From assembly GCA_946412445.1 (NCBI GenBank), contig CAMKHH010000015.1, forward strand, positions 1 through 10,506: a stretch of 10,506 nt of DNA. Reading direction: 5' to 3'. Made by a program: the position numbers and the translations under genes. Positions 1 through 10,506 of this stretch are shown in pieces. Each line of letters begins with the position of its first letter. Position 1 is the stretch's first letter. This DNA comes from an uncultured Eubacterium sp. GTDB taxonomy: Bacteria > Bacillota > Clostridia > Lachnospirales > Lachnospiraceae. The notes beneath the pieces were generated by a model, which worked only from the letters and a program-made list of their open reading frames with translations, was not told the origin of the DNA and made no database searches.

Positions 1-1531
1 GCTAATGATCCTTGCATTTACAACTCTTACCGGCTGTGCTGAAAGTAAGACAGAGGTCCCCGATAAGGCGGAAGGCAGTATCACAATTGGAGTGACCAGT
101 TTTGCAGACACCCTGGAACCGACAGAACAGTATTTCAGCTGGGTTGTGTCCCGGTATGCAATCGGCGAAACCTTAGTGAGGTTTGACAAGGAGGGTGAGC
201 TGGTGCCTTCTTTAGCAGAATCCTGGACGATAAGTCCAGATCACAAAACCTGGACTTTTAAGATCAGGGAAGGGGTCAAATTTTCCAATGGGGACGATAT
301 GACGCCTGAATTGGTAAAAACTTCTTTAGAACGTACTTTTCAGATGGCGGATCGGGCCGAAACCTTTTTTGTACCGGTTTCTATGACTGTGGAAGGGCAG
401 GATTTAGCGATTACAACAGAAGAACCGGTGGCAATTTTACCGGGAAGCCTTGCTGATCCTCTTTTTTTAATTGTTAATACAAAAGTGGATACTTCTGCCT
501 TCGCTATGGATGGACCGGTTTGTACGGGACCGTATATGGTAGAGAGCTTCAGCCCGACAGATACTTGCGTTGTGGTAAAGAATCCACATTACTGGGGCGG
601 CGAAGTGCCGTTTGAAAAGGTTAACTTTAAATGCATTAACGATCAATCCACACGTTCTTTGGCATTACAGTCCGGCGAAATTGATATTGCATATAATTTA
701 AAGACAGAAAATGTCGTGGAATTTGAAAATATGGATTCTGTTGAAATACAGCGATTACAATCTCTTCGATCAACGTATGCTTTTATGAATCAGAATGGCG
801 CACTGAAAGATTTAGCGCTTCGTCAGGCACTTATCCGTGGATTAGACAGGGGAAAGTATTGTGATACATTATTACAAGGCGGAGCAACTGCGGGAAAGGC
901 TCCGATTCCGCCGACCTTAGATTTTGGATTTGATGAACTGAAGGATGAAAATGCCTATGACCCTCAGGGAGCAAAAGAACTTTTGAAAAATGCCGGATAC
1001 GTGGATGTGGATGGAGATGGATATGTGGAAACGCCTTCTGGAGATAAGCTGGATCTTCAATTTGTAATATACACCAGCCGTGAAGAGCTCGGTGTATATG
1101 CGCAGGCAGCACAGGCCAATCTGAAGGATATTGGAATTCGTATGACACTTAAAACGGTCAGTTACGAAACTCTTTTGGATATGAGAGATTCCGGTACTTA
1201 CGACCTGCTGATTTGGAATGTTTTGGTTGCCAATACAGGGGATCCGGAAAAGTACCTCCGGGAAAACTGGTATAGCGAAGCCCAGACAAATACCGCTGGC
1301 TATAAAAATGATACCGTAGATAAGTTGTTGGATCAGATGTCCGCGGAATTTGATGAAAAGACCAGAAGAGATCTCGCTATTCAAATTCAGCAGCTTATCA
1401 TGGATGATGCCGCAACGGTATTTTTCGGATATGAGACCACCTACCTGTTCTCTTCTAAAGCACTTCAGGGCGTGGCATTATATCCAATTGATTATTATTG
1501 GCTGACAACAGAAATCGATTCGGTAAAATAG
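1..1531 (+). CDS. Peptide/nickel-type ABC transporter solute-binding lipoprotein (5' end cut)
   Basis: Extracellular substrate-binding component of an Opp/Dpp/Nik-type importer (SBP_bac_5 family), which delivers ligand to the membrane permeases. The first ATG in the window is at position 5, but the frame stays open to the left edge. The visible leader has only ten residues and no basic residue before the lipobox LTGC, so the real start is probably upstream of the window. Numbering from that ATG, Cys11 is the predicted lipidated residue. Family features follow: the ETLVRFDKEGELVPSLAESW segment (55-74), TGPYMVESF (174-182), the NPHYWGG block (193-199), LRQALIRGLDR (272-282) and a C-terminal YYWLT end. 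The length of about 508 residues fits the family. Residues 334-342 (DVDGDGYVE) resemble a calcium-binding loop. The stop codon overlaps the ribosome binding site of the next gene, so it is cotranscribed with the two ATPases. Whether the ligand is a peptide, nickel or a metallophore complex cannot be read from the sequence. Confidence 0.9.
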   Translation, partial: LMILAFTTLTGCAESKTEVPDKAEGSITIGVTSFADTLEPTEQYFSWVVSRYAIGETLVRFDKEGELVPSLAESWTISPDHKTWTFKIREGVKFSNGDDMTPELVKTSLERTFQMADRAETFFVPVSMTVEGQDLAITTEEPVAILPGSLADPLFLIVNTKVDTSAFAMDGPVCTGPYMVESFSPTDTCVVVKNPHYWGGEVPFEKVNFKCINDQSTRSLALQSGEIDIAYNLKTENVVEFENMDSVEIQRLQSLRSTYAFMNQNGALKDLALRQALIRGLDRGKYCDTLLQGGATAGKAPIPPTLDFGFDELKDENAYDPQGAKELLKNAGYVDVDGDGYVETPSGDKLDLQFVIYTSREELGVYAQAAQANLKDIGIRMTLKTVSYETLLDMRDSGTYDLLIWNVLVANTGDPEKYLRENWYSEAQTNTAGYKNDTVDKLLDQMSAEFDEKTRRDLAIQIQQLIMDDAATVFFGYETTYLFSSKALQGVALYPIDYYWLTTEIDSVK

Positions 1532-1540
1532 GAAATCATT

Positions 1541-2326
1541 ATGCTGAAAATCAAAAACTTATCCATTCAATTCGGACAGCAAAAGCCGGCGGTTGAGGAT
1601 TTTAATCTGATGATGGAAGAGGGCGAAATCGTCAGTATTGTCGGAGAGAGTGGAAGTGGTAAAACCACATTAGCCCGTGCCATATTGGGAGCCTTGCCAG
1701 GTACGGGTCATATTACCTCCGGGGATATTTTATTTCATGGAGAGTCCCTGAAAGAAAAACATAATCAAAAATGGCAGAATCTGAGAGGAACAAAAATTTC
1801 AATGATTTTCCAGGATTGTGGGGTTACCCTCAATCCGATCCGGAAAATCGGCTCTCAGTATATGGAATACATACGAATTCATAGCAGCTTATCCAGGCAG
1901 GAAGCCAGGGATAAGGCGATGGACATGCTGAATAAAATGCGGCTTTCTGACAGTGATAATATCATGAACAGCTATCCGCACCAGCTCAGCGGCGGCATGC
2001 GCCAAAGGGTGGGCATTGCTATGGCAATGACATTTCAGCCGGAACTTCTGTTGGCAGATGAGCCTACCAGTGCGCTGGATGTTACTACGCAAGCTCAAAT
2101 TGTTCATGAAATGATGACATTACGGGAGGCGTTTGGTACGGGGATTCTTTTAATCACCCATAATCTTGGCGTCGCATCTTTTATGTCGGATAAGTTGATT
2201 GTGATGCAGCATGGAAAAATTGTAGATCAGGGAATTACAAAAGAGGTGATTACAAATCCTTGCAGCGATTATACAAAAAAATTGCTCAATTCAGTTCCGG
2301 AAATAGGGGGAGAGCGTTATGTCTGA
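1541..2326 (+). CDS. ABC transporter ATP-binding protein, OppD/DppD/NikD type
   Basis: First of two ATPases that power the importer at the inner face of the membrane. Of its 261 residues, 35-42 are the Walker A motif (GESGSGKT), Gln91 is the Q-loop residue, 149-153 are the signature LSGGM followed by RQR, 169-174 are Walker B (LLLADE) with the D-loop SALD after it, and His207 is the switch histidine in LITHN. The start ATG lies 7 nt after an AGGA that overlaps the TAG stop of the binding-protein gene. The protein is short for OppD/DppD (usually about 320-350 aa) because it ends soon after the ABC domain. It lacks the C-terminal oligo_HPY extension with clustered cysteines that its partner carries. 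This shorter form is common among NikD-like proteins, which weakly favours a nickel-type system. Its end overlaps the next gene by 8 bp, suggesting translational coupling. Confidence 0.93.
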   Translation: MLKIKNLSIQFGQQKPAVEDFNLMMEEGEIVSIVGESGSGKTTLARAILGALPGTGHITSGDILFHGESLKEKHNQKWQNLRGTKISMIFQDCGVTLNPIRKIGSQYMEYIRIHSSLSRQEARDKAMDMLNKMRLSDSDNIMNSYPHQLSGGMRQRVGIAMAMTFQPELLLADEPTSALDVTTQAQIVHEMMTLREAFGTGILLITHNLGVASFMSDKLIVMQHGKIVDQGITKEVITNPCSDYTKKLLNSVPEIGGERYV

Positions 2327-3278
2327 ATTATTATTGGAAACCAGGCATCTGGTCAAGGAATATCCTGCATCCTACGGGAGAATCCTTACTGCATGCAATG
2401 ATATTAATTTGAAGCTCTATAAAGGGCAGACATTAGGCATCGTTGGGGAAAGCGGATGCGGTAAGTCCACCCTTATCAGAATGCTGTCCCAGCTGGAAAA
2501 GCCTACCAGAGGGGAAATTCTTTATCTTGGAAAGAATATTGAGCATTTAAAATCCAGGGAGCAACGCTTGCTGCATCAGCATATGCAAATGATTTTTCAG
2601 GATCCGCTGGCTTCTTTAAATCCCAGGATGAAGATCATCGATCTTTTGACGGAACCCTTGATGAATTATGGAAGGCTGAAAAAAGGAGAAAAGGAAGAAA
2701 AAGCCAGAGAACTTTTGCGCATGGTAGAGCTGCCGGAAGGTATTCTGTACCGCTATCCCCATGGGATGAGCGGAGGGCAGCGGCAGCGTATCTGCATTGC
2801 ACGGGCTCTTTCCCTGGAACCGGAAATCTTAATTTGCGATGAAGCAACCTCTGCCCTGGATGTATCCATTCAAAAAAGCATCATTATGCTTTTGACGAAG
2901 CTACAAAAAGAAAGAGAAATCAGCATTATATTTATCTGTCATGATTTAGCGCTTATTCAGTTGTTTGCTCATCATGTTGCGGTGATGTATCTGGGAAACA
3001 TCGTGGAGACCCTTCCCGGAGGTTCGGTAAATGGACAGGCAAAGCATCCTTATACAAAAGCCTTGTTAGAATCTGTTTTTTCTGTATCTGCCGGTAGGTC
3101 GAAAAATAGGAGAACCATAGGCGGAGAGATTCCCAGTCCGCTGAACATACCTGCAGGATGCCCGTTTGAGCCTCGCTGCAGGGAGTGCAGTCATGAATGC
3201 AAGGAACATCGTCCGACTCTGATTCATGCAGAAGAAGATCACCTGGTGGCCTGCACCAAAGCTGTACTTTCTCCATAG
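2319..3278 (+). CDS. ABC transporter ATP-binding protein, OppF/DppF type, with C-terminal Cys cluster
   Basis: Second ATPase of the importer, expected to pair with the preceding one. Visible motifs over 319 residues: Walker A at 43-51 (GESGCGKST), Q-loop Gln94, signature MSGGQRQR at 150-157, Walker B ILICDE at 170-175, and switch His208 in FICHD. The C-terminal oligo_HPY extension is present, with Cys281, Cys287, Cys294 and Cys312 in the usual C-x5-C-x6-C-x17-C spacing. In some Dpp/Opp ATPases this kind of cluster holds an iron-sulfur centre. Cys290 is an additional cysteine inside the cluster. The start ATG at 2319 lies inside the end of the upstream ATPase gene, after a GGGGGAGAG purine tract. 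The 3' end overlaps the oppositely oriented hydrolase gene by 40 bp, and no hairpin terminator is evident there. Confidence 0.93.
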   Translation: MSELLLETRHLVKEYPASYGRILTACNDINLKLYKGQTLGIVGESGCGKSTLIRMLSQLEKPTRGEILYLGKNIEHLKSREQRLLHQHMQMIFQDPLASLNPRMKIIDLLTEPLMNYGRLKKGEKEEKARELLRMVELPEGILYRYPHGMSGGQRQRICIARALSLEPEILICDEATSALDVSIQKSIIMLLTKLQKEREISIIFICHDLALIQLFAHHVAVMYLGNIVETLPGGSVNGQAKHPYTKALLESVFSVSAGRSKNRRTIGGEIPSPLNIPAGCPFEPRCRECSHECKEHRPTLIHAEEDHLVACTKAVLSP

Positions 3279-4210
3279 GCCAGCAAGGTATCTCCTTTCA
3301 GAACGCAGAGACTTCCGACCTGATAGAGTAATATTCCGTCTGTATCCGCCGCGTATGTTTCCAGCGTATTCCCAAAATAATCCTTGATTTCCCCGAGCCG
3401 ATCTCCCTTTTTAAAGGAATCCCCCGGCCGAAAACAGGGATACCAGCAGCCGGTCTGTCCGGCGCTGGGGTAGAAAACAGTATGAAGCTCAACAGAATCA
3501 CATTCTTTAGGGGCCGTTTCTCTGGTCCATACTCCCAGGTGATGCAATATACGATACACGTCTTCCTTGTAAGACACCACTTCAAAAGGATTCCATGCGC
3601 CCATGCACCCCCTTTCGATAAGGATGCTTGGGATACCGCAGGATGCGGCATAATTGTAAGCACCGCCGGTAGCCGTTGCCGAACGAACCAGATAAGGCAC
3701 ATTTACCTGCTCTGCCATAGCTTTGGAGCAGGCAGAAACCTCAGGTGCGGCGGCGCCGGCATAATATACATAAGGAGTAAGGGACTCAAATCCATCTCCG
3801 CCGTGAAGATCAATGTAATAATCTGCTTTACTTTGCAGATGCCGAACCACAGTATATGCAATTTTATCCGACAGGGTACCGTCTGCGGATCCCGGAAATA
3901 CTCGATTCAGGTTCTTGCCGTCTTCCGGTACAAGGCTCATGGAGCGCTGTTCGAAGCCTGTTGGATTCATCAGTGGAAGCAGGATAATATCTCCATGGAT
4001 ATCCTCCGGTTCCAGTTCCGATGACAGTTCAATGCCTGTCTGAATGCTCACATATTCTGCACAATGTACTCCGGCTGTAATCAAAACAGTTGGTCCGGGT
4101 TTTTTTCCTGCGATCAGGGTGATTGGCAATTTGACATTTGTACCGTCTATTCCGATGTATTCAGCTGTTTTTTTTCCGGGAAGTACGTTCTGATCCTTAA
4201 TTTGTAACAT
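3239..4210 (-). CDS. Succinylglutamate desuccinylase/aspartoacylase-family zinc hydrolase
   Basis: A predicted zinc-dependent carboxypeptidase-like amidohydrolase (M14-related AstE/AspA superfamily), probably cytoplasmic because no signal peptide is seen. The start chosen is the ATG at 4208-4210, giving 323 aa (MLQIKDQN...), because AAAGGAG sits 7 nt upstream. The frame can be opened 45 codons further, but that stretch covers the AT-rich promoter region and does not look like protein. Zinc ligands are His49 and Glu52 in GVHCAEY and His136 in IDLHGGDG. Glu199 in SILIERG is the likely catalytic base, and Asn100/Arg103 in DGKNLNRVFPG match the substrate-binding block. Residues from about 255 (FRPGDSFKKGDRLGEI) form the usual C-terminal beta-barrel domain. 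The true substrate, an N-acyl amino acid or related amide, is unknown. The gene is convergent with the transporter operon and shares its last 40 bp, so a link between them is only positional. Confidence 0.9.
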   Translation of the reverse strand: MLQIKDQNVLPGKKTAEYIGIDGTNVKLPITLIAGKKPGPTVLITAGVHCAEYVSIQTGIELSSELEPEDIHGDIILLPLMNPTGFEQRSMSLVPEDGKNLNRVFPGSADGTLSDKIAYTVVRHLQSKADYYIDLHGGDGFESLTPYVYYAGAAAPEVSACSKAMAEQVNVPYLVRSATATGGAYNYAASCGIPSILIERGCMGAWNPFEVVSYKEDVYRILHHLGVWTRETAPKECDSVELHTVFYPSAGQTGCWYPCFRPGDSFKKGDRLGEIKDYFGNTLETYAADTDGILLYQVGSLCVLKGDTLLAYGESTALVQATR

Positions 4211-4331
4211 GATTCGCTCCTTTGTTTTTATTGTACATGATATTAGTATATAGTATAATAGCAGATAAAAACAGACAAATATAAATTTTTCGGGAAGTAT
4301 GGAACTGCCGGGAGACCAGAGGGAACGAGGG
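4211..4331. promoter_or_regulatory. Divergent promoter spacer between the hydrolase and acetyltransferase genes
   Basis: AT-rich 121-bp spacer between two divergent genes. On the + strand a perfect TATAAT lies at 4254-4259, with a weak -35 candidate TTGTAC at 4231-4236 (17-bp spacer, 3 of 6 matches to TTGACA), in position to drive the acetyltransferase gene. On the - strand, TATACT-like -10 candidates overlap the same stretch, but no good -35 was found. The hydrolase ribosome binding site (complement of CTCCTTT, 4217-4223) also falls here. The + strand promoter is plausible; the - strand one is only assumed. Confidence 0.45.
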
Positions 4332-4868
4332 ATGAATATGAACATTGCTATAAGAGAGTTTCGTAAAGATGATATAAGTAAAATGATTTCTATTTGGAAT
4401 GATATTGTAGAAGAGGGGATTGCTTTTCCTCAGACAGAAATGTTGGATACGGACAGCGGACTTGATTTTTTCTCCCGGCAATCCTTTACAGGTGTTGCCG
4501 TGGATACCGATAATAATGAAATCCTCGGGTTATATATTTTGCATCCAAACAATATCGGCCGATGTGGGCATATATCCAATGCAAGTTATGCAGTCGCACA
4601 AAATCGGAGAGGCTTACATATCGGTGAAAAATTAGTTTCTCACTGTTTGCAGAAAGCAAAGGAGACCGGGTTCAGAATATTACAATTCAATGCGGTTGTC
4701 AGTACAAATTATGGGGCGCTCCATCTTTATAAAAAGCTGGGCTTTATTCAGCTTGGAATCATCCCGGGCGGCTTTTTATTAAAGGACGGGACGTATCAGG
4801 ATATTATACCTCATTATAAAATTCTTTCAAATCACACTTTGTGCTCTCAGAAAGCTGAGTATATCTGA
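4332..4868 (+). CDS. GNAT-family N-acetyltransferase
   Basis: A predicted acetyl-CoA-dependent acetyltransferase of 178 aa acting on an amine; the substrate cannot be inferred. The protein opens with the usual beta strand (IAIREFRKDDI), followed by an acceptor-side region with EEGIAFPQT. The acetyl-CoA pyrophosphate-binding motif A is at about 90-99 (QNRRGLHIGE), with His96 at the place often taken by Gly in R-G-x-G-x-G. Motif B follows, with NYGALHLYKKLGF at 126-138. The start could be ATG 4332 (AGAGGG 8 nt upstream) or ATG 4338 (AGGG 6 nt upstream); both fit the family, and the ATG at 4299 lies before the ribosome binding site. The 3' end overlaps the convergent TfoX-domain gene by 65 bp. 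The tail after HYKILSN may therefore be constrained by both genes. Confidence 0.88.
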   Translation: MNMNIAIREFRKDDISKMISIWNDIVEEGIAFPQTEMLDTDSGLDFFSRQSFTGVAVDTDNNEILGLYILHPNNIGRCGHISNASYAVAQNRRGLHIGEKLVSHCLQKAKETGFRILQFNAVVSTNYGALHLYKKLGFIQLGIIPGGFLLKDGTYQDIIPHYKILSNHTLCSQKAEYI

Positions 4869-5058
4869 CATTTTCAATTGCACCCTGAATGCCATAAAGC
4901 ATATGCAGGCAGGCTCCTTCATCAACACTTAGCCTGATGCGGATAAATGCCTCCTTGCTTCCCATCTGTATAAGCTGCTCTGCGGTATGAATGCCTATCG
5001 CATTCAGGTTGCTTTCTAAAACCCTGCCCACATTTGGCAAGGATGACAATTCACTCAT
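4804..5058 (-). CDS. Small protein with a stand-alone TfoX C-terminal domain
   Basis: An 84-residue protein made only of the TfoX C-terminal-type domain, a helix-hairpin-helix-like fold. The LPNVGRVLESNLNAIGI block (7-23) is the hairpin, followed by TAEQLIQMGSKEAFIRIR and a helical tail with LHMLYGIQGAI. In TfoX/Sxy this domain follows an N-terminal domain and the protein governs competence genes. The stand-alone version is common in Clostridia and Bacilli, and its role is not established. The start ATG has AGGTGA 7 nt upstream, overlapping the TAG stop of the zinc-ribbon gene. It is therefore the third gene of the TetR operon and probably translationally coupled. Confidence 0.8.
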   Translation of the reverse strand: MSELSSLPNVGRVLESNLNAIGIHTAEQLIQMGSKEAFIRIRLSVDEGACLHMLYGIQGAIENVRYTQLSESTKCDLKEFYNEV

Positions 5059-5068
5059 AAAAATTCAC

Positions 5069-5314
5069 CTATTCAAAATAATTTTTCCATGCCGGGAGTT
5101 TTTTCATATTACTTTCGGCTATTTCTCTGGCGGCTTTTTCATCAAAGCCCTGAGTTTTGAATATAAAGTGCGCCATAGCCTCTTTCTTTTCCTCAAATGA
5201 CTGCATAGAGCCATCCGGATGCGCACAATGCACGCAATAGTCTTTACCTGTATCCCCATTTGGGTAGTCAGAAATTTTCTGCATGGGCATCCCGCAAGAT
5301 ATACATATCTTCAT
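5069..5314 (-). CDS. Small zinc-ribbon protein
   Basis: An 81-residue protein with two CxxC knuckles, CISC near residues 4-7 and CVHC about 20 residues later, spaced as for one structural zinc. It matches the putative zinc-ribbon domain family that carries the ISCGMPM and DYCVHCA...DG signature. The C-terminal half is helical and charged (FEEKKEAMAHFIFKTQGF, then AAREIAESNMKKLPAW), also typical of the family. The start chosen is the ATG at 5312-5314, 8 nt after AGGAGG. A GTG two codons earlier lies only 2 nt from that AGGAGG and is too close. The TAG stop of the upstream TetR gene is part of the ribosome binding site. The function is unknown; a role in nucleic-acid or protein binding is a guess. 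Confidence 0.83.
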   Translation of the reverse strand: MKICISCGMPMQKISDYPNGDTGKDYCVHCAHPDGSMQSFEEKKEAMAHFIFKTQGFDEKAAREIAESNMKKLPAWKNYFE

Positions 5315-5326
5315 TTTCACAGCCTC

Positions 5327-5908
5327 CTATTTCTCAATTAACTTTAAAAATGTTCCAATAAGTTCTTCGCTATACCTGTCAATAAGCGGATTCTCCGGTG
5401 AAAAAAACTCTTTGTTCTGAAGGTAGTAGTGAACCAGTCCCATCCATGTGTTGAACAGCAGGTGTGTCGGAATATTTTTAATCGTCTGCTTTTCATATTC
5501 TTGTTCAATTATTTTACTAAAGTGATAGGCAGCGACTGATTGTAAATTTACAAAACTGATCTTTGCTTCCTCCGGCAGCTGATTCTTTTCGGCCACTAAT
5601 CGGCGATAGAAGTTTTCGTGCTTCGCTAGAATATCCAAATGTGTTTTCAGCAATTTTCTGATATCGCTGTTATTTTCTGATAAATCGTGCAGTTCAAGTC
5701 CCAGCCTGTCTCCAAAATCACCTATCACAGCGCATAACAAGTCATCTACGGATGGGAAATGTACAAAGATCGTGCCATGTGACACACCTGCTTCTTTTGC
5801 AATGGCAGCGGTTGCTGTAGAAAATCCCTGTTTAGAATACATAATATAAGCGGTTTCAATGATTTTATTTCGTGTATTCTCTTTCTGTTGTTGCCTTTTT
5901 GAATCCAT
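5327..5908 (-). CDS. TetR-family transcriptional regulator
   Basis: A 193-aa one-component regulator. The N-terminal DNA-binding domain is clear: TRNKIIETAYIMYSKQGF (12-29), then the helix-turn-helix with IAKEAGVSHGTIFVHF (36-51). This is followed by VDDLL and a helical ligand-binding/dimerisation domain with no recognisable ligand signature. The start ATG has GGAGG 7 nt upstream. It is the first gene of a three-gene minus-strand operon with the zinc-ribbon and TfoX-domain genes. The promoter just upstream contains palindromic half-sites at the transcription start, which suggests autorepression. It is also divergent from the pilus operon, whose start is about 210 bp away; control of the pilus genes is possible but not shown. 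Confidence 0.9.
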   Translation of the reverse strand: MDSKRQQQKENTRNKIIETAYIMYSKQGFSTATAAIAKEAGVSHGTIFVHFPSVDDLLCAVIGDFGDRLGLELHDLSENNSDIRKLLKTHLDILAKHENFYRRLVAEKNQLPEEAKISFVNLQSVAAYHFSKIIEQEYEKQTIKNIPTHLLFNTWMGLVHYYLQNKEFFSPENPLIDRYSEELIGTFLKLIEK

Positions 5909-5921
5909 ATAATGACCTCCA

Positions 5922-5941
5922 ACTCATTGAGTTAACACTCA
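5922..5941 (-). promoter_or_regulatory. Candidate TetR operator (inverted repeats at the transcription start)
   Basis: Three 5-bp half-sites are packed together on the + strand: ACTCA (5922-5926), TGAGT (5928-5932) and ACTCA (5937-5941). They form two overlapping inverted repeats, one with a 1-bp and one with a 4-bp centre (TGAGT-TAAC-ACTCA). The site covers the predicted transcription start and touches the -10 box, where a bound repressor would block initiation. Binding by the adjacent TetR protein is inferred from position. Confidence 0.55.
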
Positions 5942-5969
5942 TTATAAAACAGAGGGTAATAAATGTCAA
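5941..5969 (-). promoter_or_regulatory. Consensus vegetative promoter of the TetR operon
   Basis: On the minus strand, TTGACA (5964-5969) and TATAAT (5941-5946) are both exact sigma-A consensus hexamers separated by exactly 17 bp (5947-5963). The predicted transcription start is near 5934, leaving a 5' leader of about 25 nt that contains the GGAGG site of the TetR gene. Confidence 0.85.
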
Positions 5970-6121: not shown

Positions 6122-8221
6122 ATGAGCATGGTACATAGAAAAATAAAGTATCCAGGAAATAAGAATAGTTTCCGCTGGCTGGCAGTCGTTCTCGTTTTCT
6201 TTTTGCTGGTCTCTATCTTGCCGGCTTCAGGACTTACGGCCGAGGCAGCAAATACCGCCGGTGAAGAAGATGCCCTCGCATACTCTGAGGAATCTGTGAC
6301 GCAGATTGCCGGAGCTGCAGGTACAGAGCCTTCCGAATCTCCGCCACCTGCATCGCCGGTGACGGAAGGGGAAGATGAGAAAAGCAATCATGTCCTCATT
6401 CTTTCTTTCGATGAGCTGGATTCCCTCTATGCAGAGGAGCTGGCTGTAGCAACAGGTACCGACCTTGCCAACTTATCATTGCCTGCCGAATTAGGTGCTG
6501 TGGTGGAAAGGGATGGGTCTGCCGCTTCTGAAAAGGTTCCGGTAACCTGGATATCGAACCCTGACTACGATGGGAATGTCACAGGCAGCTATCTGGTCAC
6601 ACCGGTTTTAGAAGAAGGCTATACACTGGCAGAGGGTGTGGAGCTGCCGCACGTTGCAGTCAGGGTAATAGACTCGGAGGGGCTGATCCAACCGTTTGCC
6701 GGAGGAACAGTCATTATTAACGGCTCCATGAGTGAAGCACAGATTCAAACTGCAATCCAGAATGAATTAAGCAGCTATAGCTCCGTAATAGTTCTCGGCG
6801 CAAAGACGAATGCGGCGGCAGAGTTGTCCCTGACAATTCCGCAGGGGAAGAAAGTGATTTGGAAAGCAAAGTATGAATCGGGCCCGGCTTTATCGGGTGC
6901 AATGCTTATGCTTCCGAACTTTTCAGGAACATTTGAAGTAAGCGCGGGCGGCAGCATTGTGGGGAATCACAGCGGCGCGGCTATCAATATGAATGGAAAT
7001 ACTTTCTCCGGGCATGTTGTTGTCAACGGAGGAACCGTCACGGCGAATGGTCTGGGGATTTACACCAATGGAGCAAGCGTTACGGTCAGTGGCGGGGGCA
7101 GTGTTGCTTCGCAGAATTCACAGGCCATTTTTCTTGTCCCGGCCGTTAATCCCACAAGTATTACGGTCAGTGGAGGCACAGTGAGTTCCGCTTCCTCCGG
7201 GGCGATTCGGGTCATAGGAGTTAACGCTCAGGTAACGGTCAGTGGAACCGGAGAAGTGATTGCAGCAACGGGAAGCACCATCCAAAGTACCGGAAATGTT
7301 ACGGTTCAGGACAGTGGTAAGGTGATGAACACAGGGAGCGGCAGTGCAATCAGTGCGAAAGATATTCTGGTCAGCGGCGGCCTGGTCTTTGCCTCTGCCG
7401 GAGGGATAAGCGGTACGGGAAATGTTGTGAGTCCTTCCGGCACTTTTTCGGTCACAGGGGACGGAGTGGTGATCGGCTGGGATGAGGACCAGGGTGTACG
7501 CCAGTACCTGCAGTATAAAAAGAAGGATATTTCGCTGAGGACCAGTGAAGATACTGCTGCTGCGGCCAGAGCTTACTGGGATTTTGGCTCCGGTCACGGC
7601 TCCGCTATGGATGGTATTGCTTATAGTAACGGCGCCAACAGCGGCTTCATTCCGCTGCCTGTTACACTGATTAATATGGTATCGGTTACCTTATCGAAAG
7701 AAATTGAAGGAACATATGCCAATATGCAGGAGCAATTCACCTTTAAACTGATATTTACGAACAGCTCCGACGGCTCACCGGTTACAACCCGACCGGTCTT
7801 CACCTACACCGGCGGAACACTTCCCGGCACAGGTGCAGCAGCTCCGCCAGGCGTCTCCATCACCCTTGATGAGAGCGGTACAGCAACCGTTACTCTGGGG
7901 CATGGGCAGACGATCATTCTGGCGGTTCCGCTGGGATACGGACTGGAGGTTCAGGAGCTTCTGCCTCAGGGCAGCATGTATACACCGTCTGTTCAGACCG
8001 ATATAGGGGGTGTGGAGGACAGTATAACAGGTGCTCCGACAATCGGCTCGCAGGAAATCGACGATAACGCAGTCATAGCCTATGTCAATCGGTTTGAAGA
8101 GATTGTTCCGACCGGCATAACACCGGGGGCGGATACGATATGGATTCTGCTTCTTTCCGCAGGACTTCTGGCCTTGACAGCTGCCGTGCCGGAAGTAATC
8201 CGCAGACACAGACGGGGGTGA
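6122..8221 (+). CDS. Accessory/tip pilin with beta-helix repeats and PTG-type sorting signal
   Basis: Large secreted, wall- or pilus-linked surface protein of 699 aa. A basic N-terminus and hydrophobic segment (about 17-37) form a signal peptide, probably cleaved after AEA at 42. Residues about 87-184 resemble a bacterial Ig-like domain. About 195-450 is a low-complexity repeat region with VTVSGG-like rungs every 22-27 residues, as in pectate-lyase-like beta-helix adhesins. A conserved WDEDQG...GFIPLPVT linker follows. The last domain (about 515-660) resembles the second Spy0128 pilin domain, with a candidate isopeptide triad Lys526 (LSKEIEG), Glu612 and Asn656 (YVNRF). The protein ends with IVPTGI (661-666), a hydrophobic span and RRHRRG. 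There is no cysteine. The position first in the operon, before SipA and the major pilin, matches the Cpa adhesin of streptococcal FCT loci. The TTG at 6098 is rejected as start because it lies before the ribosome binding site; ATG 6128 is an alternative. Confidence 0.85.
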   Translation: MSMVHRKIKYPGNKNSFRWLAVVLVFFLLVSILPASGLTAEAANTAGEEDALAYSEESVTQIAGAAGTEPSESPPPASPVTEGEDEKSNHVLILSFDELDSLYAEELAVATGTDLANLSLPAELGAVVERDGSAASEKVPVTWISNPDYDGNVTGSYLVTPVLEEGYTLAEGVELPHVAVRVIDSEGLIQPFAGGTVIINGSMSEAQIQTAIQNELSSYSSVIVLGAKTNAAAELSLTIPQGKKVIWKAKYESGPALSGAMLMLPNFSGTFEVSAGGSIVGNHSGAAINMNGNTFSGHVVVNGGTVTANGLGIYTNGASVTVSGGGSVASQNSQAIFLVPAVNPTSITVSGGTVSSASSGAIRVIGVNAQVTVSGTGEVIAATGSTIQSTGNVTVQDSGKVMNTGSGSAISAKDILVSGGLVFASAGGISGTGNVVSPSGTFSVTGDGVVIGWDEDQGVRQYLQYKKKDISLRTSEDTAAAARAYWDFGSGHGSAMDGIAYSNGANSGFIPLPVTLINMVSVTLSKEIEGTYANMQEQFTFKLIFTNSSDGSPVTTRPVFTYTGGTLPGTGAAAPPGVSITLDESGTATVTLGHGQTIILAVPLGYGLEVQELLPQGSMYTPSVQTDIGGVEDSITGAPTIGSQEIDDNAVIAYVNRFEEIVPTGITPGADTIWILLLSAGLLALTAAVPEVIRRHRRG
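6932..7480 (+). repeat. Protein-coding beta-helix repeat array in the accessory pilin
   Basis: Eight degenerate units starting near 6932, 7013, 7079, 7157, 7226, 7295, 7364 and 7442 encode a beta strand of the type V-T-V-S-G-G followed by a variable turn. Spacing is 22-27 codons and three consecutive units are exactly 69 nt apart. At DNA level the core ACGGTCAGTGG recurs at three of them. The pattern is that of right-handed parallel beta-helix rungs; the boundaries are approximate. Confidence 0.65.
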
Positions 8222-8225
8222 GCTT

Positions 8226-8750
8226 ATGAGTGATGTACCGATGCAGCGGCCGCGGGCACCTACGGTGCTTTGGGAGCTGTTACTGCTGATGATAAAAATT
8301 GCAGCGATTGTATGTGCCCTTCTGTTGATTTTTACCTTTATTTTCGGGATGTTCCGCAACACTGATCCGGATATGTCGCCGGCGGTGGCAGACGGGGATC
8401 TGGTGTTCTTCTATCGCCTGGATAAGAACTATGCCTCACAGGATACGCTCGTTTTGAAGGTCAAGGGGCAAAAGCAGGTACGCCGTGTGGTGGCTGCAGC
8501 AGGCGATACGGTGGATATTACAGAAGATGGGCTGATCGTCAACGGTGCAGTCCAACAGGAAATGAAGATTTACGTTCCTACCCGGCCCTATGAAGAGGGA
8601 GTCCGTTTTCCGCTTACGCTTAAGGAGGGGCAGGTATTCGTGCTTGGCGATAACAGGACGAATGCCACGGACAGCCGTGTATACGGCGTGGTAGAGAACA
8701 GGGATACTTTAGGTAAGGTGATGGCTATCCTGCGGCGCAGGGGGATATAG
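8226..8750 (+). CDS. sipA: SipA-like signal peptidase I homologue lacking the catalytic dyad
   Basis: A 174-aa protein of the type I signal peptidase (S26) fold with one N-terminal membrane segment (about 14-42). The box that normally reads SMxPT is D49-M-S-P-A, so Asp replaces the nucleophilic Ser. In the box that normally reads KRVVG, the sequence is R86-R-V-V-A, so Arg replaces the general-base Lys. The GD at 57-58, GDTVDI and the LGDNRTNATDSRVYG box (140-154) are kept. S. pyogenes SipA, as I recall, likewise has Asp and Gly at these positions and is needed for pilus polymerisation as an accessory factor rather than a protease. The location between the two pilin genes is the same as in FCT loci. 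The gene starts 4 nt after the preceding stop with a GGGGGTGAG site upstream. An automatic annotation would probably call it signal peptidase I; I consider an assembly chaperone more likely. Confidence 0.85.
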   Translation: MSDVPMQRPRAPTVLWELLLLMIKIAAIVCALLLIFTFIFGMFRNTDPDMSPAVADGDLVFFYRLDKNYASQDTLVLKVKGQKQVRRVVAAAGDTVDITEDGLIVNGAVQQEMKIYVPTRPYEEGVRFPLTLKEGQVFVLGDNRTNATDSRVYGVVENRDTLGKVMAILRRRGI

Positions 8751-8795
8751 CACAGACAATACCTTCTCACATCATATTATATGGAGGAATTCAAA

Positions 8796-10031
8796 ATGAA
8801 ACTCACAAAAAAACACGCATTCCCTAAGGCGTTTTTTGCGCTGACACTCGCCCTCACTATGTGTCTGGGCGGCCTGACTACCGTATTTGCAGCCGGTGAC
8901 CCTGTTGAGGGAAACGAAGCAACCATTAAAAAGGTACTGCAGATGCCGGAAGGCACTTCTACACCGGCAGCAACGTTTACATTCCACTTCGAGAAGAAAA
9001 GCTACAACGACAATGCGGCCGACAAGGCGAAACTACCGACCATCACCGACAAGAACATTTCTTTTTTAACATCGGAGAACGGTTCTACCAGCAATGGTCT
9101 GAAAATCGTATCAAAGGAATCGGCAGACTTCTTTAGTGGCATCTCATTTCCAAATGCAGGAGTCTATACTTATACATTGACAGAAACATCGGGGACATAC
9201 GGTGGGACAGAGCTGCATCATATGGACTATTCCGGTGCAGAGTATGAGATTAGAGCTTATGTAGAGAATGGTGCAGGCGGGCCTGAGCTGAAAAAAATCA
9301 GTGCGGTTATTGTAAAAAAGGACGGTTCCCATGACGGCACCGTGAATGTCGGGGATAAGGTGAATCCGACCCCTGGTCAAAGTACCCTTGTATTTACGAA
9401 TAGCTATACGAAGACTCCGGGCGGTGGTTCTCCATCTGATGGTGCGCTTGCCATCAGCAAAACAGTTGCGGGCAGCATGGGCGACCAGACAAAATACTTC
9501 CCCTTTACCGTGAAAACAAAAGCTGCGGGAACCCAGAGTGGTACAGTGACCTATAAAGCGTATCTCATGGAAAACAGTTCTGTTATTACACCTGCTGCCG
9601 AAAACGGTACATTTACAACCGGAACTGACGGATCAGGAACCTATATTAAAGTGACAGCCGGGACCGATCTTTCCATTAACCTGAAGCATGGACAGAGTCT
9701 GGTATTTACGGATCTTCCGGTTGGTGCCTCTTTTGAGGCCGAAGAAGATGCGGTCCCCAATTATGCGCCCAGCGTTGTCCTGACGGTCAATGACAATTCT
9801 GTCACCGTCCCCGGCGGTACAGTAGGTACATCACTGTCTACCAGTGAACAAATGATTGGCGAAAAGGAGAACAGTGCGGCATTCACCAATACGTTTGATA
9901 CCTCCATCACGCCTACGGGTATTTCCATGAACGATCTGCCGTTTATTATGATGATCGCACTGGCAGCCGGAGCATTGGTGCTGTTTGTGGTCGTTAAATC
10001 CCGCAAAAAAGCCGATGCGTTCAGACGCTGA
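8796..10031 (+). CDS. Major pilin, Spy0128/FctA-like, with two isopeptide domains
   Basis: Predicted backbone subunit of a covalent pilus, 411 aa. The signal peptide runs to about Ala33 (TVFAA). Domain 1 (about 40-204) has Lys46 (IKKVL), Glu130 (YTLTE) and Asn202 (FTNSY). Domain 2 (about 215-367) has Lys222 (ISKTVAG), Glu317 and Asn365 (FTNTF). Both sets match the Lys-Glu-Asn triads that form internal isopeptide bonds in Spy0128. Lys188 (GDKVN) is a candidate intersubunit linkage lysine by position before the Asn202 strand. A PGGGSP-type linker separates the domains. The sorting signal is ITPTGI (371-376), then a membrane span and KSRKK. The mature protein has no cysteine. The start is ATG 8796, 8 nt after GGAGG; the ATG at 8781 lies before that site. 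The sortase gene begins within its last 17 bp. Confidence 0.9.
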   Translation: MKLTKKHAFPKAFFALTLALTMCLGGLTTVFAAGDPVEGNEATIKKVLQMPEGTSTPAATFTFHFEKKSYNDNAADKAKLPTITDKNISFLTSENGSTSNGLKIVSKESADFFSGISFPNAGVYTYTLTETSGTYGGTELHHMDYSGAEYEIRAYVENGAGGPELKKISAVIVKKDGSHDGTVNVGDKVNPTPGQSTLVFTNSYTKTPGGGSPSDGALAISKTVAGSMGDQTKYFPFTVKTKAAGTQSGTVTYKAYLMENSSVITPAAENGTFTTGTDGSGTYIKVTAGTDLSINLKHGQSLVFTDLPVGASFEAEEDAVPNYAPSVVLTVNDNSVTVPGGTVGTSLSTSEQMIGEKENSAAFTNTFDTSITPTGISMNDLPFIMMIALAAGALVLFVVVKSRKKADAFRR

Positions 10032-10506
10032 GAAGATTGCAGGAAAAGCAATCCATGCAGCAAATGGCATCGTAAATCTTATGGTGTTGGGCATAATCCT
10101 GTTGTTCATCGCATTCAGCGGTTATGCCCTGTGGGATTCCAGGCAGCTTTATAATGCGGCGGATTCCGCGCAGTATGAGATTTATAAGCCGGAGGTTGGG
10201 AAGGAGACAGAATCCTTTGAGGAGCTTCGGGGAATGAATGAGGAGGTCTTTGCCTGGCTCACGGTTTATGGTACGAACATTGACTATCCGGTGACGCAGG
10301 GCGGGGATAACGCAAAGTATATCAATACGAATGCCTATGGGGAGTACTCCCTTGCAGGCTCCATCTTCCTGGATTACCGGAACCATGCGGATTTTCAGGA
10401 TTTCAACAGCATTCTCTATGGGCACCATATGGAAAGACAGGAGATGTTCGGGGAAATTGGCTATTTCGGAGACAAGGACTATTTTGACAGCCATCCGTAT
10501 GGGAAC
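10015..10506 (+). CDS. srtB: Class B sortase, N-terminal part (3' end cut)
   Basis: Membrane-anchored transpeptidase expected to cleave the PTG signals of the two pilins and polymerise them. The window holds the first 164 residues. An N-terminal membrane segment spans about 19-40 (VNLMVLGIILLFIAF), followed by the class B block NEEVFAWLTVYGTNIDYPV (75-93), the KYINTNAYGEYSLAGSIFLD stretch (101-120) and the active-site histidine region LYGHHM (134-139, His137 as catalytic residue). The catalytic Cys (TLxTC) and Arg would lie beyond the right edge. The start ATG 10015 overlaps the pilin end by 17 bp and has only a weak purine tract upstream, so translation probably depends on coupling to the pilin gene. 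ATG 10081 is internal to the membrane segment and less likely. S. pyogenes FCT pili are also built by a class B-type sortase. Confidence 0.88.
   Translation, partial: MRSDAEKIAGKAIHAANGIVNLMVLGIILLFIAFSGYALWDSRQLYNAADSAQYEIYKPEVGKETESFEELRGMNEEVFAWLTVYGTNIDYPVTQGGDNAKYINTNAYGEYSLAGSIFLDYRNHADFQDFNSILYGHHMERQEMFGEIGYFGDKDYFDSHPYGN

Follow-up and report, generated by a model that had tools for sequence, protein, structure and literature searches.

Layout of the operon and its surface proteins

The window, that is, the whole stretch of DNA analysed here, is an entire contig (C15) of 10,506 bases from a genome bin that is 58.65% complete. Bases 1–5908 carry peptide/nickel-type ABC transporter genes and others with no visible link to pili. 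TetR, GNAT and AstE/AspA-type genes and two small ORFs lie to the left of the pilus operon; a succinylglutamate desuccinylase/aspartoacylase-type metallohydrolase gene (3242–4210, minus strand) sits beside the oligopeptide/nickel-type ABC transporter. A sigma-70-like promoter with a 12/12 match is found on the minus strand at 5928–5969, ahead of the TetR gene and adjoined by the palindrome-like TGAGTTAACACTCA, an arrangement that looks like TetR autoregulation. In the sigma-70 scan as a whole, sites were no commoner than in shuffled sequences, and none was convincing upstream of the pilus operon.

From position 6122, four plus-strand genes follow each other, almost abutting: those for a 699-aa surface protein, a SipA-like protein, a pilin and a sortase. 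A sequence-only reading of this DNA had proposed the order large surface protein, degenerate signal peptidase, two-domain pilin and class B sortase; all four were found by family or PDB matches, which confirms the gene set as described. All features of the operon given below are on the plus strand.

The first gene (6122–8221), an ORF with an AAGGA ribosome site, encodes a tip-like (ancillary) pilin of 699 aa, made up of a signal peptide, a β-helix head, a DUF7601/CnaB-type stalk domain and a VPTGI sorting signal. The stalk domain (residues 522–634, 7685–8023) matched Pfam DUF7601 with 43.7 bits (cut-off 27), and the VPTGI sequence (VPTG codons at 8105–8116) is followed by a hydrophobic stretch and a basic tail. 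The C-terminal part of the protein aligns with domain 2 of the backbone pilin, and by eye the Lys, Glu and Asn are seen at the corresponding positions; in the AlphaFold model, the DUF7601 part has low confidence, with pLDDT < 50 for residues 599–699. A right-handed parallel β-helix was predicted for residues of about 190–490 (6689–7591). A Foldseek search with the model gave no match at E ≤ 0.001, and the assignment of the β-helix head is based on the predicted model together with its VIA structural neighbours. The latter include polygalacturonases, alginate lyases, inulin lyases and depolymerases, as would suit a pectate-lyase/polygalacturonase-type enzyme that cleaves glycans while displayed on the pilus, rather than an adhesin. 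However, non-enzymes (pertactin, Vag8) are found among the same neighbours, residues 231–450 contain just 7 Asp/Glu in 220, and no catalytic family was matched at E ≤ 0.01 in Pfam or NCBIfam, so that we regard an enzymatic head as unlikely. Searches for a vWA domain (Pfam and NCBIfam, E ≤ 0.01) and for a thioester domain (Pfam) gave no match in this protein. From the place of its gene and the shared PTG-I type signal, we infer that the 699-aa protein occupies the tip.

The third gene (8796–10,031) encodes the backbone pilin of 411 aa, which consists of an FctA domain (44.7 bits, cut-off 22.1) and a DUF7601 domain (52.4 bits, cut-off 27) and ends in a TPTGI sorting signal (9909–9920). An upstream ATG at 8781 would give a protein of 416 aa; the ribosome site favours 8796. 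PitB was the best match both in sequence (PDB search, E = 1.1e-20) and in structure; this match, like those of the SipA-like protein and the sortase in the PDB, is far beyond chance. Comparison of a predicted structure with Spy0128 had been suggested by the sequence-only reading, and the model indeed contains two Spy0128/PitB-type domains, both with a Lys–Glu–Asn triad (numbered here from the ATG at 8781). The triad in domain 1, Lys51 (8931–8933), Glu135 (9183–9185) and Asn207 (9399–9401), is invariant in 43/43 rows of alignment A3, and its residues are present in 47, 48 and 48 of 51 pilins, respectively. For domain 2, comprising Lys227 (9459–9461), Glu322 (9744–9746) and Asn370 (9888–9890), the corresponding counts are 41, 42 and 43 of 43 rows, and 47, 49 and 50 of 51 pilins. 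(Two ORFs, L069 8990–10369, which was judged to be tip-like, and L085 3–1151, were left out of the 51.)

The fourth gene (10,015–10,506) is the N-terminal half of a class B sortase, cut by the end of the contig and with an uncertain start codon. The cut gene scored 148.2 bits (E = 2.4e-43) with TIGR03064, just below the cut-off of 153.75, and 23.6 bits with PF04203, below the cut-off of 26.6; in the PDB it matched 4y4q, an SrtB-family sortase (E = 2.5e-38). The first His of the YGHH sequence (10,423–10,425), presumably the catalytic His, is present in 53/53 sortases from the related loci (aligned with second sortases included). The motif Cys, with an Arg eight columns on, was found in 52/52 readable copies, the window copy being the unread one because the contig ends at 10,506. 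When the assembly was searched for the missing half with the sortase from genome G271, places were found on contigs C155, C15 and C72 only. C155 belongs to a second operon, described below, and the right flank of the window was therefore not found in this incomplete assembly.

The SipA-like protein and its catalytic positions

The second gene (8226–8750) encodes a 174-aa SipA-like protein that we classify as a signal-peptidase pseudoenzyme. It matches Peptidase_S26 with 77.5 bits (cut-off 22.9), and the nearest solved structure is that of S. pyogenes SipA (PDB 4n31, E = 5.2e-23). According to the residue tables, the Ser position is occupied by Asp49 (8370–8372) and the Lys position by Arg86 (8481–8483), which bears out the earlier description of the protein as catalytically degenerate. 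Another signal peptidase in the same genome has both Ser and Lys intact. This protein scores 69 bits with the SipA profile, showing that the profile is not selective for dead copies.

In a six-frame reading of the pilus loci, the catalytic Lys was kept in 0/49 SipA copies, being replaced by Gly (29), Arg (11), Ala (4), Ser (2), Gln (1), Asp (1) or Leu (1), while Ser was kept in 12/48 readable copies. The best 120 of 1099 database homologues, a set biased by nearness to the Arg-bearing query, have Arg at the Lys position in 120/120 cases and kept Ser in 68. The signal-peptidase fold and the Gly-Asp and Asp-Ser-Arg columns are conserved. These retained features, together with a homologue in S. 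suis and S. agalactiae in which the dyad is apparently intact (PMC4049620), could reflect an active signal peptidase, dedicated to the pilus, that cuts the pilins using an unusual dyad of Ser or Asp with Arg. However, not one locus copy or best-120 homologue has the Lys, the Ser has been replaced variously by D, G, A, T, E, Q, N, R and F, and the genome encodes the separate intact enzyme; furthermore, the S. pyogenes protein was reported to be without peptidase activity, with its Asp/Gly playing no part in activity (PMC4049620). An active peptidase is thus very unlikely in our estimation, and we favour a non-cutting protein. FCT-2/3/4 pili require SipA, whose exact function is given as unknown (PMC7900414, PMC4049620). 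In pull-downs, SipA bound neither FctA nor the sortase (PMC7900414), so that even in S. pyogenes its role as a scaffold is yet to be proven.

Among the matches listed, SipA homologues that bear names are called forms of “signal peptidase I”, and the named relatives include Lacrimispora and “Clostridiales bacterium”. The window protein itself passes the NCBI “signal peptidase I” model with 94.3 bits (cut-off 47). It is likely that the Lys-less homologues carrying this name in public databases are misannotated. One SipA-like ORF, L080 8600–9757 (G483), has 385 aa, about twice the usual length.

Related loci and their sorting signals

The same genome (G000) contains a second operon of the same type, located on L025 310–6350 (contig C72) and L035 3–2738 (contig C155); within the sortase gene, the two contigs overlap by 16 identical bases. 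The operon encodes a 1372-aa surface protein, SipA, a pilin and a class B sortase, as well as an FctA-domain protein of 373 aa bearing a KTGDD signal. Its second sortase (L035 1956–2738) also matches the class B profile. A small FctB-like anchor pilin had been predicted to follow the window sortase beyond the right edge; a protein of this kind, encoded after the sortase, exists in the second operon. Two further clusters, L033 and L034 (contigs C90 and C247), have LPXTG-like surface proteins and several sortases with high PF04203 scores, taken as class C references by assumption; this genome may have pili of more than one type.

Related loci were collected from near-full-length pilin matches in searches of the family, genus and class, together with three partial ones. 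Matches spanning at least 365 of the 392 model positions occurred in at least 31 of 397 family genomes and at least 13 of 391 class genomes, and any pilin match in at least 68 and at least 28 of these genomes, respectively, all four figures being lower bounds since at most four candidates were scored per genome. Eleven of the 13 class genomes fall outside the family of the window and are spread over eight other families. Kin of the pilus genes thus occur in several families of Clostridia.

Gene order was counted for 52 pilins, with all loci read in six frames and L069 8990–10369 left out. Of the 49 pilins with sufficient flank, 41 have SipA directly upstream (same strand, < 400 bases); a class B sortase lies directly downstream in 43 of 49 eligible cases, and for 43 of 48 pilins an FctB-like gene is found no more than 1.7 kb downstream. 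At 36 of 45, all three neighbours were present, and the gene order that the sequence-only reading had proposed to look for in related genomes does recur there; these rates describe this family and not a random sample, because the loci were picked for good pilin matches and loci of the same order served to build the profiles. Ten of the 52 pilins are without one or more of the three neighbours where visible. They comprise second pilins of tandem operons (L026, L080), reordered loci (L059, L067, L074, L077, L091), L075 with a divergent SipA and no FctB-like gene, L089 with no FctB-like gene, and L078, for which the six-frame reading found neither SipA nor an FctB-like gene. In L026 4354–19324 (G271), the second of the tandem operons includes genes for a tip protein, SipA, a pilin, a sortase and an FctB-like protein. 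The first has those for the tip, pilin and FctB-like proteins, with neither SipA nor a sortase found; the two operons may therefore share their machinery. In L027 7777–8472 (G037), an in-frame stop splits the FctB-like gene into 112 and 118 aa.

An automatic parse of the sorting signals gave I, V, L, F or Y after the G in 51/51 pilins, with T before the G in 49/51. FctB-like proteins (two fragments under 150 aa left out) have D or E after the G in 32/39 and K, Q or R before the T in 35/39. Tip-like proteins have I, V, L or M after the G in 25/30, the rest having G, A or Q or giving no parse. The difference between pilin and FctB-like signals is as expected if the former were polymerising and the latter anchoring, and the sequence patterns would fit a scheme of two signals, one for each purpose. 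This bears on a simpler arrangement, in which the surface proteins are anchored to the wall separately and do not form a polymer. Class B sortases do also anchor single wall proteins (PMC7900414), and such could be the only role of the one encoded here; but against this stand the two distinct kinds of signal, the two-domain pilin of PitB type, and a pilin lysine, Lys193, that is kept in 42/43 near homologues. We therefore consider separate anchoring to be highly improbable. The operon very probably encodes a SipA-dependent covalent pilus of the PI-2/FCT type, polymerised by a class B sortase. This reading, which the sequence-only reading had reached as well, is supported by the families and PDB matches, the pilin model, the conservation of triads and sorting signals, the gene order in relatives, the sister operon and the published roles of SipA and SrtG1 (PMC10548224, PMC7900414, PMC4049620). 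Neither of the two outcomes named beforehand as counting against it was seen in the parts that the sequences cover.

Relation to streptococcal pili and proposed assembly

The pilin tree was made from 51 clostridial and four streptococcal rows, with no other Bacilli and with T13 and Spy0128 incomplete. The four streptococcal rows were named after trees with a single streptococcus had been made and before the four-row tree; this test was made because single-streptococcus trees cannot show nesting. Both PitBs and the window pilin fall in a 20-row clade with a support of 100/99, whereas the two S. pyogenes FCT pilins are on the other side of the tree, beside L063. Forcing the four streptococcal pilins together costs 34.4 log units (p-AU 0.019). 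After removal of nine rows that were long or doubtful (L063 included), p-AU was 0.0014, and a 17-row clade was supported at 100/99. The separation of PI-2 and FCT pilins is independent of rooting. A SipA tree, with one streptococcal row and mostly weak forks, settles nothing. Judged by the pilin tree, the window pilin belongs with PI-2 (PitB) and not with the FCT pilins.

PI-2 has the gene order pitA-sipA-pitB-srtG1-srtG2, which agrees with the window as far as the first sortase, as does the class of that sortase. It sits between pepT and hemH, whereas the left neighbour of the window operon is a TetR gene. The place of its second sortase, SrtG2, would be beyond the end of the window contig; in the sister operon, a second sortase is present. 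The PI-2 of Streptococcus pneumoniae and S. oralis, with the genes sipA, pitA, pitB, srtG1 and srtG2, resembles the window in having an ancillary pilin, SipA, a two-domain backbone and a sortase (PMC10548224, PMC3178606). PitB is polymerised by SrtG1 and SipA through VTPTG (PMC10548224), which compares with ITPTG in the window pilin. PitA has a vWA domain as its head (PMC3178606), whereas the head of the window protein is modelled as a β-helix. The available parts of PMC10548224 and PMC3178606 list no FctB-like protein for PI-2; by contrast, such a protein is present in most relatives of the window.

The likeness to the S. pyogenes FCT region claimed by the sequence-only reading held in part. 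The FCT-2/3/4 order cpa-sipA-fctA-srtC-fctB (as given in that reading, parts in PMC7900414), up to the sortase, and the two Spy0128-type domains do correspond to those of the window, but the pilin groups with PitB and the tip head is not Cpa-like: Cpa carries a thioester domain (PMC5817068). The dyad positions of FCT SipA are Asp/Gly (PMC4049620), as opposed to Asp/Arg in the window. We found no paper describing pili with SipA or a class B sortase in Lachnospiraceae or elsewhere in Clostridia in the open-licence literature, which was covered mostly by listing; “clostridi” is absent from the main text of PMC4049620, and “sipa” from the available text of PMC5817068.

Class C sortase pili (SpaA/RrgB type) are likewise sortase-built and covalent, with isopeptide pilins, but differ in sortase class and pilin domains and are not known to include a SipA.

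In the assembly that we propose, the 411-aa pilin would be exported and its two domains would lock themselves by Lys–Asn isopeptide bonds. The class B sortase would cut the TPTG-I signal and join the Thr covalently to a lysine in the following pilin subunit, for which Lys193 is a weak candidate by its conservation in near homologues. The VPTG-I β-helix protein would be added first and so sit at the tip, and SipA may bind the pilin or the sortase without cutting, as a scaffold. The polymer would end with a downstream FctA-domain protein whose signal is of the KTGD type, and another sortase would anchor this protein to the wall.

A PI-2/FCT-superfamily pilus operon in a gut-type Clostridia genome, closest to PI-2 and with a candidate β-helix-headed tip, is well supported by these data. 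More tentatively, and with somewhat less than even confidence, the observations may be joined into one history. The streptococcal FCT and PI-2 pili would be two separate branches of a family with its main diversity in Clostridia, implying at least two streptococcal uptakes; SipA would have lost its catalytic lysine before this spread and been a pure scaffold since; and the window would encode a pilus of the PI-2 lineage with its head exchanged for a β-helix. If true, the β-helix head would represent a pilus tip of a new kind.

Work on streptococci has yet to explain why FCT pili need a dead signal peptidase (PMC7900414, PMC4049620). The clostridial loci, in which the lysine is gone but the fold columns are kept, offer natural variation with which to test SipA binding, and many database entries named “signal peptidase I” may represent scaffold proteins of pili. 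An adhesive organelle, here with a β-helix head, may have gone unrecognised in Clostridia.
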